A DNA stretch of 42,462 nt, taken from positions 1 to 42,462 of the forward strand of contig NZ_JAFSNZ010000111.1 of assembly GCF_017447225.1 (NCBI RefSeq), in the 5' to 3' direction. The notes beneath the pieces were generated by a model. It saw nothing but the letters and a program-made list of their open reading frames with translations, had not been told where the DNA came from and made no database searches. Below are positions 26,551 through 36,075 of this stretch, piece after piece. The stretch comes from Methanobrevibacter sp. (lineage in GTDB: Archaea; Methanobacteriota; Methanobacteria; Methanobacteriales; Methanobacteriaceae). Numbering within the stretch: the first letter of the stretch is position 1; each line of letters starts with the position of its first letter. Made by a program: the position numbers and the translations under genes.

Positions 26551-27789
26551 TTAGTCTTTGGTTAAAACTAAATCAACACGAGCTTCACTAGCAGAAACAG
26601 TGTAATCAGCAACATTGATTTTAGTGTAACCAGATGGTACTGTATCATAATCAACTTCATAGTCACCGAATGGTACATGTAACATTTCAGCTAAACCACG
26701 GTTGTCAGAAGTTCCTGATTTGAATACATCACCATCATCGTTAGTGAATTGTATTTTACATCCACCAACTGGTTTTGCATCAGTTCCAAGGAATCTGAAT
26801 AAGATTTTTCCAGTTCTGGTTTTTAATGTTCTGTCTTCATCACGACCAATACCAGTAATCATTGCATTGGTATATTCTGCATCCATATATGAAGTGATAA
26901 CTTGAATAATGGATTGGCTGGTTGATAAATCTGTTTTAGCCCATGGCACCATAGTTGGAGGTTGGAATTCTTTAACTTTAATACTGGAAGTATCAACAAT
27001 AGCTAATTTTTCTCCTTCATCCCTTTTGATATGTGGATCAACAATGATTGGGACAATATTTCCAGATGAACTGTAGATTCCAGTTACTTTGTAACCCCCA
27101 GTCATTTCATATTCTAATGGTTTGGTTGTTCCTGGGAAATAGATATCATTGATTTGATTGGCAACTTCAGCAGTACAAACAAGACCTGCAGGGAAACCAT
27201 TTTCTTCCACAATTGCATCAAATGCAGATACAATATCATCTTTGGTTAATAAGTCTCCACCGAGATTGAAAGTGTTAGTGTGAATGTTTTTAAAGATTCC
27301 TTTGAAATCTTTTGCTTCTGCTGTACCTTCACCTTCAAGTAAAGTGTAATCTAGAGTGTTTGCCATGTCGATTAATGCATCATCCAAATCATCTTTGAAT
27401 AAATCGAATTCAGCTGCTGCTTCGGCAATGTCACCAATTTTAACATTTTGGTGTAAGATTTTCATGTAAGCGATTCTTTTATCATAATCGTTTGGAGTGT
27501 ATTCAACAATTGGATCTGTTTCATTCATGAAGTTGGTTTTATTGTTGTTATGTTTGATTTTGTATCCAACTTTAACTTTATCAGTTGAAGTTACACATCC
27601 TTGTCCTCTTAAGAATTCGAGGAACGGTGTTTGTTGAATTATTCTTTTCTTTAATTGTGGATCATATTCAACAGGCATTACAACATTAGCATTAGTTGTA
27701 GTTTGCATTGCTTTTTGTAATTCATGTAATCCTTTATCTAAATCTACATATTGTGATTTTAATTGTTCTAAAGTTACTTCTTCAGACAT
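26551..27789 (-). CDS. Major capsid protein, HK97 fold, with C-terminal Cna-B-like domain
   Basis: Protein of 412 residues starting MSEEVTLEQLKSQ at 27789, nine bases after GGAGG; an earlier in-frame GTG at 27813 lies before that site and is not the start. HK97-type features: an N-terminal helical arm, MPVEYDPQLKKRIIQQTPFLEFLRGQG, then DLDDALIDMANTLDYTLLEGEGTAEAKDFKGIF and ...IVPIIVDPHIKRDEGEKLAIVDTSSIKV. The last ~88 residues are an added beta domain (see the decoration gene). It builds the icosahedral head; gene order protease-capsid is canonical. Confidence 0.85.
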   Translation of the reverse strand: MSEEVTLEQLKSQYVDLDKGLHELQKAMQTTTNANVVMPVEYDPQLKKRIIQQTPFLEFLRGQGCVTSTDKVKVGYKIKHNNNKTNFMNETDPIVEYTPNDYDKRIAYMKILHQNVKIGDIAEAAAEFDLFKDDLDDALIDMANTLDYTLLEGEGTAEAKDFKGIFKNIHTNTFNLGGDLLTKDDIVSAFDAIVEENGFPAGLVCTAEVANQINDIYFPGTTKPLEYEMTGGYKVTGIYSSSGNIVPIIVDPHIKRDEGEKLAIVDTSSIKVKEFQPPTMVPWAKTDLSTSQSIIQVITSYMDAEYTNAMITGIGRDEDRTLKTRTGKILFRFLGTDAKPVGGCKIQFTNDDGDVFKSGTSDNRGLAEMLHVPFGDYEVDYDTVPSGYTKINVADYTVSASEARVDLVLTKD

Positions 27790-27793
27790 ATAC

Positions 27794-28873
27794 TTATTCC
27801 TCCATATTAGCACCTAATCTATTGAATAGGCTATTGGATTTGTTTTGAGTTTGAATGTTTTTGAAGATTTCTTCAGCAGTGTATGTTTTATTAGCTTCAT
27901 CACCAGGAGTATTTCTTGGTGCTGGAGTTGGCTCAGGATTCCTTTCATTTTTAATGAAATCTGCTAATCCTTTTTTGAAGTTTTCTTCAGTGAAAACATT
28001 TTTACCTAATTCTTCTTTGATTTCATCTTTGAAATCAGATAATATTTCAGCGATATCTTTCTCACTACCCTCACCAGAATTATTTTGTGGTTCTGAAGGT
28101 AATGTTAATTCTTTAATTTTATCATCAATCATGCGTTCAACATCTGCTTTACATGCTTCAATAGCTGCTGATTGAATTGCTTCTTGATTTTCAGCAAGAT
28201 ATTCATTCATGTAATTTTTACAGATACTTTTAACTTTTTCCTCAGTCATGACTTCATCATTTTGAGGATTAGGATTTGGATTTGGTTCAGGCATATTATT
28301 ATCCCCCATATATTTTTTTCTTATTAAATTACATGCACCTGCTAAACATTTAGCCTCAACAATATTATTCTTAGTTGTTGTTACAGTACCAAATGTATCA
28401 TAATTTGCAGGCATTCCAGTTAGACTAATTTCAAAAAGGTCTATGTCCTTTATCTCCCACCCATTATTAATTGGGTTATAGTCCGTTACTCTACCACCAA
28501 TACTTAATCCGAGATTAATACCAATATCAAGCATTTCTTTTACTTCTTGAGCATACTTGCTACGGATAATGGCTTTGATTTTCAACAGATTATCTGCACT
28601 GTCTACAACTTCTTTGATAGCACCGATGATGCCATCGAAGAGTTTGTACTCATGATCACCATGAAGATTCTTATGACTTGTAGTTAATTGATGCTTCATG
28701 GAATCAATAGCTGATTGTAAGACAATGTCTCCTTGGAGATCTTTATTGGTGGTGGATGCGACACCTTCAATTGTTAATGTTCCATCTTCATTCAATTCAT
28801 AGTTTTTGTTTAAGTCTGATGGGACATACAATTTGAATCGCATATCGTTTTCATTTATTGCTTTAATTGTCAT
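27794..28873 (-). CDS. Prohead protease fused to scaffold
   Basis: Protein of 359 residues. The N-terminal 160 residues are a herpesvirus-assemblin/U35-type protease: GTLTIEGVASTTNKDLQGDI, TTSHKNLHGDHEYKLFDG (His71/His74 candidates) and GINLGLSIGGRV with the nucleophile Ser124, then FEISLTGMPANYDTF. After a proline-rich linker (MPEPNPNPNPQ, 195-204) a long acidic coiled coil (~205-320) is the scaffold, ending in a flexible Pro-rich tail. It builds the prohead and then cleaves scaffold and capsid. No clear ribosome site precedes ATG 28873; the leader starts at a tRNA-like element 35 bases upstream. Confidence 0.85.
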   Translation of the reverse strand: MTIKAINENDMRFKLYVPSDLNKNYELNEDGTLTIEGVASTTNKDLQGDIVLQSAIDSMKHQLTTSHKNLHGDHEYKLFDGIIGAIKEVVDSADNLLKIKAIIRSKYAQEVKEMLDIGINLGLSIGGRVTDYNPINNGWEIKDIDLFEISLTGMPANYDTFGTVTTTKNNIVEAKCLAGACNLIRKKYMGDNNMPEPNPNPNPQNDEVMTEEKVKSICKNYMNEYLAENQEAIQSAAIEACKADVERMIDDKIKELTLPSEPQNNSGEGSEKDIAEILSDFKDEIKEELGKNVFTEENFKKGLADFIKNERNPEPTPAPRNTPGDEANKTYTAEEIFKNIQTQNKSNSLFNRLGANMEE

Positions 28874-28908
28874 AATTACATCAACTACACATAAAAAGTT
28901 TTTTTAGA

Positions 28909-28969
28909 GTGGGATTAGGGATTCAAACCCTTCTAAATATTATTTTTTAAAAGTAATTAATTATCCCAC
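28909..28969 (-). ncRNA. tRNA-like minihelix 1 (acceptor + T-arm, no D/anticodon arms)
   Basis: On the minus strand the 61-base element begins GTGGGAT (28969-28963) and ends ATCCCAC (28915-28909), a perfect 7-bp acceptor-like stem. Just before the 3' strand is a T-arm-like hairpin AGGG-TTTGAAT-CCCT. The 30 bases between them are A+T-rich and cannot form D and anticodon arms. Its 3' end is 35 bases upstream of the protease start. Not a functional tRNA; could be a tRNase Z/RNase P substrate. Confidence 0.6.
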
Positions 28970-28989
28970 ATTATTTTTAATTTTTAACC

Positions 28990-29073
28990 TAAAAAAAGAG
29001 GAATTATCCCCATTGAATAGTGGAAAGGAAAAATCGAAGGCGAAAAAAAATTAATCCACAGAGAATAATTCCC
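28990..29073 (-). ncRNA. Structured element followed by T7, terminator-like
   Basis: On the minus strand the arms GGAATTAT (29072-29065) and ATAATTCC (29007-29000) pair perfectly, with an inner pair TCCAC/GTGGA type (29055-29059 with ~29021-29025), and the 3' arm runs into seven T (28997-28991). The shape is that of a small RNA or attenuator ending in a terminator upstream of the protease gene. Folding is by eye only. Confidence 0.45.
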
Positions 29074-29169
29074 TAAAATTTTTTTAGGTACCAGAGAGTA
29101 AAAAAATGGTTTTTTATACAAAGACGCTGTTTTAGGTTTTTTGAAAGAATTTGTAAAAGAACGGATTTG

Positions 29170-29218
29170 TTGTCCCAGTTTACTCTGGGTGGACAAAGCA
29201 AAAAAAGACAATGTGTCT
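29170..29218 (-). other. Two adjacent stem-loops with T7 tract
   Basis: Within a gene-free stretch, TTGTCC (29170-29175) pairs with GGACAA (29191-29196) around an inner CCCAG/CTGGG stem, and next to it AGACA/TGTCT (29206-29210 with 29214-29218) forms a small hairpin, followed on the minus strand by seven T (29200-29206). They suggest structured RNA or a weak terminator reading leftward. Nothing here looks coding. Confidence 0.4.
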
Positions 29219-29228
29219 ATCATTTTTT

Positions 29229-29270
29229 ATTCTACATTTATTGTAAGAGACCACTCTTTACTTGTAGAAT
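29229..29270 (-). other. Long stem-loop downstream of minihelix 2
   Basis: ATTCTACA (29229-29236) and TGTAGAAT (29263-29270) pair over 8 bp, and an inner stem GTAAGAG/CTCTTTAC closes on ACCA. It lies 13 bases downstream of the 3' end of tRNA-like minihelix 2 on the minus strand, so processing at the minihelix would release an RNA that starts with this hairpin. Confidence 0.45.
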
Positions 29271-29283
29271 AATTGTTTTTTTT

Positions 29284-29324
29284 GGTGGAACAGGGAATCG
29301 AACCCCGCCAAGATTATTTCCACC
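29284..29324 (-). ncRNA. tRNA-like minihelix 2 (41 bases, near-canonical acceptor + T-arm)
   Basis: Minus strand, 5' to 3': GGTGGAA (29324-29318), ten linking bases, CGGGG-TTCGATT-CCCTG T-arm (29307-29291), TTCCACC (29290-29284), then A. The acceptor stem is a perfect 7 bp, the T-stem has five pairs including one G-U, and the loop TTCGATT fits the universal T-loop consensus. D and anticodon arms are absent altogether: 41 bases against about 73 in a tRNA. It matches the minimal substrate known for RNase P and tRNase Z. This is the clearest of three such elements. Confidence 0.7.
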
Positions 29325-29377
29325 ATAAAGATAAATTAACAATAATAATTAAATAGATTAATTGGAGGTGATAACAC

Positions 29378-29452
29378 ATGATAGTGAATGTCTACATCCA
29401 CGATGATGATGACGATGATGAATTTGAAGGAGAAATACAGAAAGGTCAATGA
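29378..29452 (+). CDS. Acidic 24-residue peptide, the only likely plus-strand gene
   Basis: ATG at 29378 is preceded by TTGGAGGTGATAACAC, whose GGAGGTGAT is fully complementary to the 16S 3' end with five bases of spacing. The peptide is MIVNVYIHDDDDDDEFEGEI plus QKGQ. A run of six Asp dominates. The stop codon lies in the loop of a perfect hairpin that follows. The upstream plus strand (29325-29370) is A+T-rich with candidate TATA elements. It is convergent with the 171-residue membrane gene. Function unknown; an antitoxin-like, regulatory or DNA-mimic peptide is possible but unsupported. Confidence 0.5.
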   Translation: MIVNVYIHDDDDDDEFEGEIQKGQ

Positions 29453-29461
29453 TTGACCTTT
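29441..29461. terminator. Perfect 9-bp hairpin between convergent genes
   Basis: AAAGGTCAA (29441-29449) and TTGACCTTT (29453-29461) pair perfectly around TGA, which is also the stop codon of the plus-strand peptide. The minus-strand membrane gene stops at 29463, two bases beyond. It can act for both strands; no strong T tract follows on either side, so termination strength is uncertain. Confidence 0.5.
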
Positions 29462-29462
29462 C

Positions 29463-30375: not shown

Positions 30376-32112
30376 TCAAATCATTGTGAAACCAGACATT
30401 TTTATTTCATTAATTTTTTTAAGAGCAAAATTATATTTATATGGATTTCTTTTTTTCCATTCTTCCAATGATATAGAATTCCTATGATAATCTTCAAGTA
30501 CTGCCATATCTACATTGTCCATTTCATTAAATGCAACCATACTAACAGTTTCAGCCCAATTATCAGGTTGATTTGTCGCACCATACCATGAAGATTCTTC
30601 AATAGGAAATCCATTTAAATACTGAAATGCACGATCTTTTTCACATGCTTTTTGAAATCCCATACTTTTTGATATACTATATCTATCTTCACCATTATAT
30701 ATTTTTCTTAATTCCTTATTTGTAAAATATTGTGGGTACAACCAAGCATTGGCTGAAATTTGGTTCATTAAACTATAATCTAAACAATGACCCATTTCAT
30801 GATATAATGTTTGAGCAACATTTCCTCTGCTAAAAATATTACATTCAAAAGCTCTTGGATGAATTTTAATGCCTTTAATGATTCCATCATATATGGGTAA
30901 TGATGACCCGCAGACATTAGGTTTATTTTTTAGTATTTTTGTGAATAAAATTTGATTAGTCGCCTTTTTAAGTATTTGGGGGGCATCTTCATAAATCTTA
31001 ATAATTTCTTTTAAATTATATTTTCCATTACCCGAATTAGTAAAATCAATATATTTTCGCATCGCACCTTCTCCGACAACATAATACTCATCAATGATAA
31101 TTTCAGTTCCATTAAGTTTATCTTTAAATATATGTTTATTTCCATCCATTCTATACTCTAACTTATAAAATTTAGCAACATCCTCAGGAGTTTTAAGAGC
31201 ACGATATTGGAATTTTCTACGAATATTCCTTAATTTTTCTTTAAGTTTATCCATGAATGATTGAGGAGTTAAATTAACAATCGATGCATCCACTAAGGGG
31301 TTGCCAATTAATATTCCATGTCTGATATATGCTGTAACTGAGCATCTGCATAAAGGGTGGAATGGTACTAAGTTGCTAGCTTCTTCTATTGGATAGATTT
31401 TGTCTGCTGCTTTTCTACATATTGCACAAACATTATCATCACCTGCAGTTAAAATCTTAACTTCCTGTACACCATAGTTAGCATAAGACTGTAAACGACC
31501 CTGTGTCATTGCACGTGCAGTCTCAGTACGAGCAATCATCATAGCACGCTGACGAGCAGACAATGTCTTACCAGTCAATGAATTATCTGTAGCATCAAGT
31601 ATTCGTTTGGCTACTTCAGGCATTGATTCAGAAGCAGCAATACCTATAAATATTTCTGCTCGAATATGATTTTTTAAGTCTTCATTAACATTACTGATTA
31701 AGCTAAAGTTATAATCCTGTAAGAATTCTAAACCAAATTTTGTTGCATCGTTATAGTATTTGGTTCTTCTTATCTCATCAGCACCATGTTGTAGTCCTGA
31801 ATCATAGATATGTGATATGATTTCATCAGCTGTGAGACTGGTATCTCCAACTATACTTTTGATTTCATTATCAATCTTTTCAAAGACTCGTTCATTGTAG
31901 GATTCATTTTCATAGAATATTCTACGTGCTTCATCACTGTCTAGCCAGTCTATGAAGAATTGTAATTGTTTGTCGAATCCACGTGTGATACTGTTATAGT
32001 ATCTGATTTCTTCGGTTGATAAAGTTGAAGTATCAAACAAGTCTTTATCGAAATCAATAATATCTAAAAGTAATTTGTTAGTGGATATTCTGTCTTCTGT
32101 AGAGGTAATCAT
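30376..32112 (-). CDS. MuF (SPP1 gp7-like) head protein fused to C-terminal zinc-metallopeptidase domain
   Basis: Protein of 578 residues, ATG overlapping the portal stop (ATGA). Residues ~90-265 are the MuF region, with IARTETARAMTQGRLQSYANYG and a zinc-like set VCAICRK...FHPLCRCSVTAY (Cys229, 232, 255, 257). MuF proteins enter the head with the portal and are injected with DNA in SPP1-type phages. Residues ~310-560 are extra: TLYHEMGHCLDYS holds the HExxH zinc site (His438, Glu439, His442), and NWAETVSM (Glu521) is a likely third ligand, as in gluzincin-like toxins. The C-domain is not needed for head assembly. Looks like a MuF polymorphic toxin, here in an archaeal virus; target unknown. 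Confidence 0.75.
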   Translation of the reverse strand: MITSTEDRISTNKLLLDIIDFDKDLFDTSTLSTEEIRYYNSITRGFDKQLQFFIDWLDSDEARRIFYENESYNERVFEKIDNEIKSIVGDTSLTADEIISHIYDSGLQHGADEIRRTKYYNDATKFGLEFLQDYNFSLISNVNEDLKNHIRAEIFIGIAASESMPEVAKRILDATDNSLTGKTLSARQRAMMIARTETARAMTQGRLQSYANYGVQEVKILTAGDDNVCAICRKAADKIYPIEEASNLVPFHPLCRCSVTAYIRHGILIGNPLVDASIVNLTPQSFMDKLKEKLRNIRRKFQYRALKTPEDVAKFYKLEYRMDGNKHIFKDKLNGTEIIIDEYYVVGEGAMRKYIDFTNSGNGKYNLKEIIKIYEDAPQILKKATNQILFTKILKNKPNVCGSSLPIYDGIIKGIKIHPRAFECNIFSRGNVAQTLYHEMGHCLDYSLMNQISANAWLYPQYFTNKELRKIYNGEDRYSISKSMGFQKACEKDRAFQYLNGFPIEESSWYGATNQPDNWAETVSMVAFNEMDNVDMAVLEDYHRNSISLEEWKKRNPYKYNFALKKINEIKMSGFTMI

Positions 32113-33392
32113 TTATAATCAGTTCTTATTCTTTCTAAAGCTAATGCTTTACGATAATATTGTTTTTCAGCCGCATCATCAGGAGTTAAAGTATTCATTG
32201 TTGCACCATAAGTTAATGGTACATCACCCCAACTTACCGGGTCCAATCCGTAGCCGGCCCTTACTTCATTTACAAAAGTAGATCCATTACGTAATTTTTT
32301 ATCTTCAATGTTGGCTCTTTTTTCTTTATCTTCCAAGTCTATTTCTTTGAATTTGAAGATTTCTTCAAAACCGGAACGGCCAAATACTTTATTATGGCTG
32401 CCTTCAAAGAGTTTCAACCAACCGGATAAGTTTGCTTTTACGGTTTCTTTTTGGGATTGGCCGGTTCCTCCTCCAAGATTACCTGATTCTATGATTCCTG
32501 CTTCTGCTGGAGTGACACCATAAACGCTTAAGGTAATATCTCTTACAAGATTTTCAAGTTCAATATACTGCATTTCTTTATTAGTGGATTGGGTCGTGAT
32601 ATATTCGGCTCCTTGAACAATCAATGTACCATTAGGATTTTCTTTACGGTCCTTTTCCAAACGTATCAATTCACGTTCCAAATCATCAGGATCAATATTA
32701 ATATCATAATTTAGTACTGCATTTGGATTGATACCATTATTTTCAAAAATGCTTTTATTGAATTTTAAGCCATAGATTTGGAGTGTCAAATATCTGGCCA
32801 AAGAATCAATAAGAGATGAACCCCATTTCTCACCACGAATACCTGGTTCACTGAAATGTATAATCTCATCAGTTTCAAATCGCGTATCATTGTATTTTAA
32901 TCCCCACTGATCCGTATCATAATGATAAGTCATCCACTCAAAAGGCAGATATTCCAATCCGACAGGAACATTGTCGAATACTTCATCATAATGGACCCTT
33001 GCGAATGCATCGCCACATATTAAGAAGCTATCCCACATCCTGTCAATGTAAGTTTCATAAAAATCATCTGCATAAACACCCATTGGATTTTTCATTAAAT
33101 TATTCAGATAATTAACAGTTGAAGGTTGGTTATACTGTTCATTGGGATTTGTTATCCTGTATCCCAATCCCAATACACGATTTTTTATTACCCTTCTGCA
33201 TACTCTTATCCAGGGCATGTCTCCTGCATCAAAGTAAGTGCTAATGTTTAAGCCTATGTCTTTGACTCTTGGCTGTAATGTCCATAGGTAACCTCTTCGG
33301 AGATTATGTAATCTTTCAGCCTCTGAAATTTTAGGCTCTCGAATATTAGGTAAGTTCATTAAACCTTTAACTATTCTATTACGTAAATTCAT
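32109..33392 (-). CDS. Portal protein
   Basis: Protein of 427 residues; AAGGAG precedes ATG 33392. It has the portal pattern: N-terminal wing with GDMPWIRVCRRVIKNRVLGLGYRI, a FLICGDAFARVHYDE strand pair, LEYLPFEWMTYHYDTDQWGLKYN, then EIIHFSEPGIRGEKWGSSLIDSLARYLTLQIYG, and C-terminal NLVRDITLSVYGVTPAEAGI. The start overlaps the large terminase stop. It forms the dodecameric DNA channel. Order TerL-portal-MuF-protease is standard. Confidence 0.88.
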   Translation of the reverse strand: MNLRNRIVKGLMNLPNIREPKISEAERLHNLRRGYLWTLQPRVKDIGLNISTYFDAGDMPWIRVCRRVIKNRVLGLGYRITNPNEQYNQPSTVNYLNNLMKNPMGVYADDFYETYIDRMWDSFLICGDAFARVHYDEVFDNVPVGLEYLPFEWMTYHYDTDQWGLKYNDTRFETDEIIHFSEPGIRGEKWGSSLIDSLARYLTLQIYGLKFNKSIFENNGINPNAVLNYDINIDPDDLERELIRLEKDRKENPNGTLIVQGAEYITTQSTNKEMQYIELENLVRDITLSVYGVTPAEAGIIESGNLGGGTGQSQKETVKANLSGWLKLFEGSHNKVFGRSGFEEIFKFKEIDLEDKEKRANIEDKKLRNGSTFVNEVRAGYGLDPVSWGDVPLTYGATMNTLTPDDAAEKQYYRKALALERIRTDYK

Positions 33393-34702
33393 AATTTTAA
33401 TCTCCTTGAAGCATGATAAATTTCTTTTTTAGCTGTTTTCATTGTACCGCAGATTCCACCACGCCACATGTCCGGGCAGTGGTCATCTACTTTTAGTGGT
33501 TTGTCTTCACCTCTTTGCTGGGATTTTTTGTCCCAACTGTAAGTTTGAGCTTGTTCAATACTATTAATGCATGATTCGTGTATTTTGAATCTTCTATTTT
33601 TTATTAAATCTTGGATTATTCCAATGTCTTCATATACGTCAGGTGCATATGTTTTTACTTTCATCAATATTCTTTCGTCTTTTTGGCATGCTGTTTTGAG
33701 GCTTGCTGCGTCGTGAGGTAGAAAAAGAGTGTTGTTTCTGTTCAAATGATATTTATTCTGTAATTTGATAATGTCATCTACACGTTCACTATCTGATTGT
33801 GTGACCCCTATTACTTCAGCATCATAATAAGTTTCCTCTAAAAGATAATAGGAATTTCCTTTATCCAAATTCTTCTGAATACCCATAACACCAAAAGTAG
33901 TAACAGTCGATACACCATAGTCACAGCAGATATTAATCTCATGAACTTTAGGCATATTCGCGAAAGTATTCTCTGATTCCAGGAACATATCATAAATAGC
34001 ACCTTCAGCAATAACCCACTTACCCAGAATATATCTTTTATATTGTAACTGTGATTTACTGTACAATAACTTCAAATGCTCAACATATTCAGGAGATAAA
34101 TTAAGATTATCCCTCAAAGTAAAATGCCATACCTTAACAACCCCTTTATCTTTTAACTCCTGATTGTTAATGTATTCCTTGTAAATGTAATGGTAAGGAC
34201 TGTCCGGATTCATTGTCCAGAACATTTGAGCACCAGGCAAACTGCACCTGTTCATAGCCATTTTAATAGCTGACTCCGGAGCAGTAGCAGTCTCATCACT
34301 ATACCAACCACCAACAGTCATACCACGTATCTTATCAGTAGCACCTTCATCATTAAAACCTACCAACCAAATACGCTTATCACCAATATCAAAATAACCA
34401 TCAAACTTATTATAATCATAAGGTAGCTTATTATGAATCATTTTAATAAGGTCACGAGTCACATTCCTCTCCAACGTGTCACGTGTTTTACCAGTCATTA
34501 AAAATTCATCATGAGGACTATTAGCAATAAAATCCAACCACCGCACATCAGCAGTGACAGTTTTACTAGACCTGACAGATCCATGAAGAATATTCACAAA
34601 AGCATTACTATTTTCCAAAAAATCTAAAGCTTTAGGAGAAAACAAACCATATTGAAAAGGCTTAACCTTTTTTTGCAATTTCTTTGCTCTTGCGAATGGC
34701 AT
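33389..34702 (-). CDS. terL: Terminase large subunit
   Basis: Protein of 437 residues. ATPase: Walker A GSVRSSKT (41-48), Walker B GGWYSDE (131-137, Asp136/Glu137) and a coupling-motif-like FWTMNPDSPY (161-170). Nuclease: INICCDYGVSTVT (Asp261) and FLPHDAASLK with a late acid in VDDHCPDMWRGG. It drives DNA into the prohead and cuts concatemers. It overlaps the small subunit gene by 41 bases and starts after GGAG. Family is the phage Terminase_6/PBSX-like group, length usual. Confidence 0.92.
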   Translation of the reverse strand: MPFARAKKLQKKVKPFQYGLFSPKALDFLENSNAFVNILHGSVRSSKTVTADVRWLDFIANSPHDEFLMTGKTRDTLERNVTRDLIKMIHNKLPYDYNKFDGYFDIGDKRIWLVGFNDEGATDKIRGMTVGGWYSDETATAPESAIKMAMNRCSLPGAQMFWTMNPDSPYHYIYKEYINNQELKDKGVVKVWHFTLRDNLNLSPEYVEHLKLLYSKSQLQYKRYILGKWVIAEGAIYDMFLESENTFANMPKVHEINICCDYGVSTVTTFGVMGIQKNLDKGNSYYLLEETYYDAEVIGVTQSDSERVDDIIKLQNKYHLNRNNTLFLPHDAASLKTACQKDERILMKVKTYAPDVYEDIGIIQDLIKNRRFKIHESCINSIEQAQTYSWDKKSQQRGEDKPLKVDDHCPDMWRGGICGTMKTAKKEIYHASRRLKL

Positions 34703-35302: not shown

Positions 35303-35701
35303 TCATATTCTTATGAAGTGTAACACAACACCCACAATAATTGAGATTACAGGTATTAATGCCAACATCGTATTACGGAAACTTCTTTGACTACTAACAA
35401 AATCAGTCATATCATTACGATACTTAGATACTTCTTTTTGTAAATCATCAATCTTATCTTCCAAATCCTCAATTTTTTTATTATTTGCTGAGCGTTGTTT
35501 TTGCCCTTCTTCTAATAACACAGTAACACGTGTGACTTTTTCTATAAGTTCTGTTTGGAGTCTTTGCTGACGATCCTTTTCAATTTGTATCTGATGAATA
35601 TCTTCTTTTTTACTGTCTAATCTTGCATTTATTTCTGCTATTTCTGATTCGATAGATGCGAATCTTTCTTCATGAATACAGTTATGGTTAGTCAATGTCA
35701 T
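35303..35701 (-). CDS. XhlA-like lysis-associated membrane protein
   Basis: Protein of 132 residues starting MTLTNHNCIHEERF at 35701 (a TTG at 35704 is upstream). About 90 residues of coiled coil (IESEIAEINARLDSKKEDIHQI ... NNKKIEDLEDKIDDLQKEVSKY) end in one C-terminal membrane segment (MLALIPVISIIVGVVLHFI). This is the layout of XhlA/haemolysin-like proteins that assist holins. It overlaps the holin gene by 14 bases, so the two are translated together. It acts in the cytoplasmic membrane at lysis. Confidence 0.65.
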   Translation of the reverse strand: MTLTNHNCIHEERFASIESEIAEINARLDSKKEDIHQIQIEKDRQQRLQTELIEKVTRVTVLLEEGQKQRSANNKKIEDLEDKIDDLQKEVSKYRNDMTDFVSSQRSFRNTMLALIPVISIIVGVVLHFIRI

Positions 35702-35942
35702 CAACTCCAGTGTTTGCTGGAGCGTATTGTTCTATGATTCTTTGTTCTGCAACTTCTACACGTGTGTTTTCTGTTGCCTGGACTACCAGATAACCTGCCA
35801 ATAGGACAAGTATTGGTGCAAGATATGCGAATTCTTCAGGCAATATTTCTGCTAAAGTATCTTTTCCAATATATGTTATTAGTCCTGCAATGAAAACTAT
35901 TGCATTGGCTGCTTTGGATTTGTATTTATATGTTTGTATCAT
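35688..35942 (-). CDS. Holin-like membrane protein
   Basis: Protein of 84 residues; GGGGA lies upstream of ATG 35942. A first hydrophobic segment (ANAIVFIAGLITYIG), a short acidic turn (LPEEF) and a second (YLAPILVLLAGYLVVQA) fit a small two-TM holin with charged C-end (RVEVAEQRIIEQYAPAN). With the XhlA-like gene next to it, it likely forms the membrane lesion at the end of infection. No separate endolysin gene is seen nearby. Its start is 31 bases downstream of tRNA-like minihelix 3. Confidence 0.6.
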   Translation of the reverse strand: MIQTYKYKSKAANAIVFIAGLITYIGKDTLAEILPEEFAYLAPILVLLAGYLVVQATENTRVEVAEQRIIEQYAPANTGVDDID

Positions 35943-35973: not shown

Positions 35974-36075
35974 GCTGATGGCTGGATTTGAACCAGCATT
36001 AGGAGAAAAAAATAAATTTAAAGTTTTTTTTAGTCTTCCACACCATTAAAAACTGTCTTTTTTATAATCATCAGC
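35974..36075 (-). ncRNA. tRNA-like minihelix 3 (acceptor + T-arm, 71-base insert)
   Basis: Minus strand: GCTGATG (36075-36069) pairs perfectly with CATCAGC (35980-35974); the T-arm GCTGG-TTCAAAT-CCAGC (35997-35981) has five perfect pairs and a consensus T-loop. Between them are ~71 A+T-rich bases including an AGTTTTT/AAAAACT hairpin but no D-arm, no anticodon arm and no tRNA-type variable region. Its 3' end is 31 bases before the holin start. Together with two other elements it forms a recurring motif. Confidence 0.65.

Follow-up and report, generated by a model that had tools for sequence, protein, structure and literature searches.

A tailed virus or provirus of a methanogen carries three tRNA-like minihelices on the minus strand of its packaging and head gene region, in each of which an acceptor stem encloses a T-arm and whose stems are under selection at the RNA level in related viruses. 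We consider it likely that these elements are viral t-elements, that is, minimal pre-tRNA mimics in a long late transcript which would be cut by the host RNase P and probably also by tRNase Z.

Minihelices and their genomic context

The window (the whole stretch of DNA that was analysed, 42,462 nt) corresponds to the entire contig C108 of an assembled methanogen genome. On its minus strand, the genes for terminase, portal, minor head protein, prohead protease and major head protein follow one another, which identifies a tailed virus or provirus. The earlier note, made from the sequence alone, had guessed this source, a methanogen virus, rightly. The features referred to below are, in the direction of transcription:

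36076, minus strand: U(-1) before mh0, RNase P site predicted from the 5' context
35974-36075, minus strand: mh0, third tRNA-like element (covariance model and T-arm scan)
35691-35942, minus strand: conserved gene of 84 aa (KYKSK protein), located downstream of mh0 (10 relatives aligned; 27 viral loci)
33389-34702, minus strand: terminase large subunit gene (PHROG 10250)
32109-33392, minus strand: portal gene (PHROG 12)
30376-32112, minus strand: minor head/head morphogenesis gene upstream of mh1 (PHROG 115)
29325, minus strand: U(-1) before mh1, RNase P site predicted from the 5' context
29284-29324, minus strand: mh1, tRNA-like minihelix of 41 nt, with a 7-bp acceptor, a linker of 10 nt and a T-arm of 5 bp
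28970-29282, minus strand: structured spacer RNA between mh1 and mh2 (folding z-score, conserved hairpin)
28970, minus strand: U(-1) before mh2, RNase P site predicted from the 5' context
28909-28969, minus strand: mh2, tRNA-like minihelix of 61 nt; the start codon of the prohead protease follows 35 nt downstream
27797-28873, minus strand: prohead protease gene, first after mh2 (PHROG 80/617/1028)
26551-27813, minus strand: major head protein gene (PHROG 1328)

The shortest element, mh1, reads GGTGGAA-ATAATCTTGG-CGGGG-TTCGATT-CCCTG-TTCCACC and has seven Watson-Crick acceptor pairs, a 5-bp T-stem including one G-U pair, and a canonical T-loop. The acceptor of mh2 (GTGGGAT-(30 nt)-AAGGG-TTTGAAT-CCCTA-ATCCCAC) likewise has seven pairs; its T-stem has four (position 1 is A.A), and in its T-loop a U replaces C56. 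Both minihelices had been proposed before, and their places, their strand, the perfect 7-bp acceptors and the linkers of 10 and 30 nt were all borne out; the T-arm with T-loop claimed for both is canonical in mh1 but incomplete in mh2, given its shorter T-stem and the missing C56. The third element, mh0 (GCTGATG-(71 nt)-GCTGG-TTCAAAT-CCAGC-CATCAGC), lies on the terminase side and ends 31 nt upstream of the start of the 84-aa gene (35942), for which no PHROG or Pfam-type family match was obtained. The earlier note thus understated the finding: the window contains three elements, each virus has two conserved loci, and some variants carry large inserts.

The gap of approximately 590 nt (28874-29462) that holds mh1 and mh2 extends from the end of a 180-aa gene (29463) to the start of the prohead protease (28873). 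Its description as gene-free was nearly correct, except that it contains a minus-strand ORF of 79 aa (28984-29223), without PHROG or Pfam family match, and a plus-strand ORF of 24 codons (29378-29452). The latter has a strong Shine-Dalgarno sequence (GGAGGTGATAACACATG) and the product MIVNVYIHDDDDDDEFEGEIQKGQ, and it terminates in the palindrome AAAGGTCAATGATTGACCTTT, a possible two-way terminator.

The elements do not form the cloverleaf with D and anticodon arms that defines a tRNA. ARAGORN called no tRNA and no tmRNA in the window, and here, as in 11 relatives, neither tRNA nor any other RNA family reached the gathering score of Rfam. Below the cut-offs, mh0 scored 26.9 bits with the tRNA family (cut-off 29), the family nearest to mh1 was mascRNA-menRNA (RF01684; 24.3 bits, cut-off 42.5), and tmRNA scored 10.9 bits (cut-off 47). 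A tmRNA, uncalled by ARAGORN and sub-threshold in Rfam, was therefore rejected as an identity of the elements. A coding function of mh1 (ATG GTG GAA...) was also dismissed, because the frame is not maintained across linkers of 8, 9 and 10 nt, and because an early stop occurs in L060.

Conservation in related viruses

When the gap (28874-29462) was subjected to 2000 dinucleotide shuffles, one strict match appeared in a single shuffle and two in none. For comparison, 75 related loci were collected via the prohead protease; the protease of the window as a lone query gave no match in the viral contigs, whereas a query in the form of an alignment did. The genomes of these relatives appear to be Methanobrevibacter MAGs, mostly from ruminants. 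Of the 75 loci, 24 had a strict mh2 element no more than 200 nt ahead of the protease, compared to 0.13 in shuffles and one on the reverse strand. Because the strict scan presets both structure and loop, a repeat scan of 300 nt demanded only a stem of 7 bp around an adjacent hairpin. It yielded a T-loop-like loop in 27 of the 48 loci with any candidate, at positions -31 to -125, these 27 including the complete tRNA-Met of L107. It also uncovered variants with loops of 6 to 10 nt and the acceptor GTTCTTT/AAAGAAC (L074, L076, L129-L134 and others). In the tree of the protease, a single clade with 37 rows (support 92/94) comprises 30 of the 31 carrier rows; L112 lies outside it. The other seven rows of this clade represent shortened contigs (L139, L119, L122) or two losses (L068/L032 and L063/L085); in L119 and L122, whose contigs end early, the T-arm and the 3' acceptor strand are still visible. 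Since L032, L068, L063 and L085 lost mh2, this element is not essential. A search of 139 host-family genomes with the mh2 model gave strong matches at these protease loci only. Matches of model R1 in G108 and G109 (E 0.006) were judged to be due to chance, as they lie away from the protease and show no such paired acceptor by eye.

Most viruses carrying mh2 have no mh1. In L059 and L060, mh1 begins soon after the end of the minor head gene, and approximately 20-90 nt separate the end of mh2 from the protease start codon, so that cuts would land between genes. Two further features of these loci were recorded. The provirus region on G053:C273 (L066, L176) contains identical elements twice, about 77 kb apart, and could be a tandem provirus or an assembly artefact. 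The prohead protease frames of L064, L067, L069, L070 and L077 end at approximately 120-230 codons or are split by stops, which may reflect introns, frameshifts or decay.

The earlier note had named a lack of stem covariation in relatives as evidence against its reading; covariation proved to be strong in all three elements. For mh2 (21 sequences), 11 of 12 pairs changed on both sides, and the covariation of 0.668 compares to 0.141 in shuffled and 0.226 in the best slid version of the alignment. In mh1 (seven sequences), both sides changed in 6 of 12 pairs (0.460 versus 0.163), and in mh0 (11 sequences) in 10 of 12 (0.792 versus 0.233). Among the cells of the mh2 alignment 96.8% were paired, a value partly built in by choosing elements as paired, so that compensatory changes at homologous sites carry more weight. 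Pairs were counted over 31 structured positions, excluding the linker, because MAFFT misaligned short class-B elements. The acceptor, T-arm, T-loop and G53-C61 are kept, C56 is missing from many mh2 elements, and the T-stem is reduced to 4 bp in some. Acceptor sequences differ completely among classes (GTGGGAT, GTTCTTT, CAGAGCA, GGTGATG). Linkers measure between 3 nt (L112) and 77 nt in mh2 and between about 55 and 223 nt in mh0, and this wide variation identifies the acceptor and T-arm as the conserved part. Only mh1 has a conserved linker, AATCTTKG, in contrast to the unconserved, AU-rich linkers of mh2.

5' context, host enzymes and neighbouring tRNAs

RNase P has a known preference for a U at position -1. 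Directly 5' of the acceptor, a U was found in 55 of 57 elements (strict mh2 22/22, variant mh2 11/11, mh1 6/7, mh0 16/17); these rows are kin and the count therefore gives no p-value, but it holds across separate element classes. Position -2 is mostly A, and positions further 5' vary. The tRNA genes of the host have U(-1) in 22 of 30 and A(-2) in 14 of 30 cases, and its genome encodes tRNase Z and the archaeal RNase P RNA. Five mh2 elements are directly followed by U-CCA, which could block tRNase Z. Complete tRNA genes occur in the same region: a tRNA-Leu(UAG) approximately 30 nt upstream of mh2 in L064 (6112-6197) and L078 (249-333), and a tRNA-Met in L107 (3803-3878) at the place of mh2. Should these tRNAs be made as part of the same transcript, cuts at these places would be required anyway.

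Additional structured RNA

The spacer between mh1 and mh2 (28970-29283) folds better than its shuffles (z-score -3.7). A CCCAG/CTGGG hairpin and the motif CAAATCC in it are invariant across four viruses; its length and sequence are strongly variable among relatives. The gap of many relatives contains the motif CCAC..GTGG-[C/T]TAAAC (or GAC/GTC), whose loop is complementary to and covaries with the strand that follows, and which is likely to be an H-type pseudoknot. Such pairings are TTGGAGTA/TACTCCAA in L063 and TGAATA/TATTCA in L134. The motif is often preceded by TCATTTCGCTACTTT, is located 130-700 nt upstream of the protease (L063, L071, L074-L077, L094, L126-L135 and others) and has its counterpart in the window at approximately 29161-29200 on the minus strand. 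No Rfam family was found at this motif, which may be another structured RNA within this gap. A scan of the viral contigs with TCATTTCGCTACYTT gave 84 matches, many of them probably by chance and none in the window.

The interior of mh0 (55-223 nt) has a conserved hairpin of its own. Moreover, upstream of eleven homologues of the 84-aa gene (L071, L168, L169, L196, L201, L204, L207, L209, L211, L212, L214) the 5' acceptor strand of mh0 is also complementary to the strand directly downstream, across a GNRA-like pentaloop. In L204, for example, the local hairpin is GCTATGA-GCGAA-TCGTAGC and the 3' acceptor strand TCATAGC; in L071 these are GTCGTG-GAAAA-CATGAC and CCACGAC, respectively. The local hairpin and the tRNA-like fold are mutually exclusive, and the mh0 of the window has no second copy of the strand. 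This dual pairing might constitute an RNA switch, which we regard as a lead.

Proposed processing and alternative explanations

The elements combine an acceptor stacked on a T-arm with a T-loop and have no tRNA function, and the gene order suggests that they are part of a longer transcript. They share these properties with t-elements, to which we provisionally assign them. According to this model, the host RNase P would cut 5' of G1, right behind the conserved U(-1), and tRNase Z would probably cut 3' of the discriminator base. The mRNA for terminase, portal and minor head protein would be terminated by mh1. Cleavage by tRNase Z after mh1 and by RNase P before mh2 would set free the structured spacer of approximately 313 nt, and the protease/capsid mRNA would begin at a fixed point about 34 nt ahead of its start codon. 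Ahead of the 84-aa gene, mh0 would act likewise. The benefit might be that level and stability of the capsid mRNA are uncoupled from the upstream genes. Both cleavages, their order and this benefit are what we infer from the sequences. Long late transcripts of archaeal viruses that are processed into smaller RNAs have been described in phiH1 and are suspected in HF2 (PMC8707807). In Haloferax, tRNase Z cuts the t-element before the 5S rRNA, and t-elements flanking a crRNA released this crRNA in vivo (PMC4326828).

We favour processing because the conserved parts are those that the two enzymes read, while the linker varies; because the place upstream of the protease or the 84-aa gene and the coding strand are fixed (24 versus 1 reverse); because acceptor and T-stem covary strongly in three separate element classes; because U(-1) matches the host tRNA genes; and because the host has both tRNase Z and the archaeal RNase P RNA. 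The earlier suggestion of processing signals that cut the late viral RNA agrees with the fixed sites, U(-1) and the full tRNAs at the same places, although cleavage as such is deduced from sequence. Several traits do not fit a t-element well, namely the lack of C56 in many mh2 elements, the 4-bp T-stems and the U-CCA after five mh2 elements. Moreover, a structure that is bound and never cut would leave similar traces in the sequence. Without being cleaved, the elements might then serve in translation control or 5'-end protection, as 5'-UTR structures to which a tRNA-binding protein (synthetase, EF1A, Pus10 or a viral one) attaches. The position of mh2 and mh0 20-130 nt upstream of start codons suits such a role, and tRNA-binding proteins also recognise a T-loop with an acceptor. 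However, a single synthetase is difficult to reconcile with the wholly different acceptors of the classes, mh1 is approximately 400-600 nt away from the next gene start, and U(-1) is unnecessary for the binding of a helix; we thus regard this explanation as unlikely.

Still less probable, in our view, is that the products are what matters, i.e. that the minihelices or the enclosed or bracketed RNA are stable viral small RNAs similar to mascRNA and the cutting of the mRNA is a by-product. The folding of the spacer beyond its shuffles, the 55-223 nt with a conserved hairpin enclosed by mh0, the conserved mh1 linker and the sub-threshold resemblance of mh1 to mascRNA-menRNA would agree with this, but mh1 is absent from most viruses with mh2, the spacer is poorly preserved in length and sequence, and the mh2 linkers are unconserved. 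Finally, features at the DNA level, such as an attP derived from a host tRNA, inverted-repeat binding sites of proteins or decayed viral tRNA genes, seem very improbable. Archaeal viruses do have tRNA-like attP sites, as in halovirus HF2 (PMC8707807), and relatives contain viral tRNA genes at the same places. Nevertheless, the compensatory changes at homologous sites include G-U pairs, and the strand bias is pronounced. Random decay of a tRNA, which had been considered an unlikely source from the outset, is at odds with the complementarity of both acceptor strands across the clade, since decay would not preserve it. In the host genome, searched with model R1 and short patterns, no second copy with at most two mismatches was detected that would indicate an attP, and the best match to any of the 35 host tRNAs covered 19 of 24 positions. 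A scan of the neighbouring genes for an integrase gave only a weak PHROG match (13 bits, E 0.054) in a 133-aa gene (35303-35704).

If the proposed cuts occur, the minihelices would be a natural punctuation of viral mRNA by minimal pre-tRNA mimics that retain their shape while their sequence is free to drift. This would explain separate levels of packaging and capsid genes from one long late transcript, provide tens of natural substrates for studying what the archaeal enzymes RNase P and tRNase Z require, and supply a portable tool for defining RNA ends in methanogens. A wider scenario, in which a clade of archaeal tailed viruses uses dedicated mini-tRNA sites to excise structured RNA between packaging and capsid genes, with mh0 perhaps as an on/off switch of processing, is a tentative idea that we consider rather doubtful. 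In any case, gaps in archaeal virus genomes can hide conserved structured RNA that is overlooked by annotation.

Comparison with known systems

Full-text searches of an open-access library brought up no earlier report of elements of this type from methanogen viruses or other tailed viruses. As a kind, t-elements are already known, and the putative viral example appears to be new in the literature searched. The mascRNA-menRNA family (RF01684) shares the acceptor and T-arm around a reduced middle; it is an animal nuclear RNA, however, and the middle of mh1 is merely 10 nt long. RNase P and RNase Z produce mascRNA. The tRNA-like domain of tmRNA also has an acceptor and T-arm that close a long insert, comparable to mh0 of L066, L190 and L191 (146-223 nt), but tmRNA is not known to occur in archaea. 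Armless mitochondrial tRNAs of nematodes have a minimal shape of acceptor and T-arm-like structure (approximately 40-60 nt) and decode, whereas the viral elements have no recognisable anticodon arm.

Halovirus HF2, also a tailed archaeal virus, contains a tRNA-like gene, but this is an attP that matches host tRNA genes and lies beside an integrase (PMC8707807), while the present elements match no host tRNA. Plant mitochondrial t-elements, as cited in PMC8392254, are tRNA-like and set mRNA ends as well, albeit in an organelle and not in a virus; they are likened here without sequence comparison. The closest parallel is the archaeal t-element of the 5S rRNA in Haloferax volcanii, likewise a tRNA-like structure that is not a tRNA within a longer archaeal transcript (PMC4326828). 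There, tRNase Z cuts the element and RNase P can use it (PMC4326828 and papers cited there), and the viral elements would be cut in a similar manner. They differ from it in belonging to viral late transcripts, with at most three per genome, in preceding protein genes, and in having linkers of 3 to more than 200 nt.
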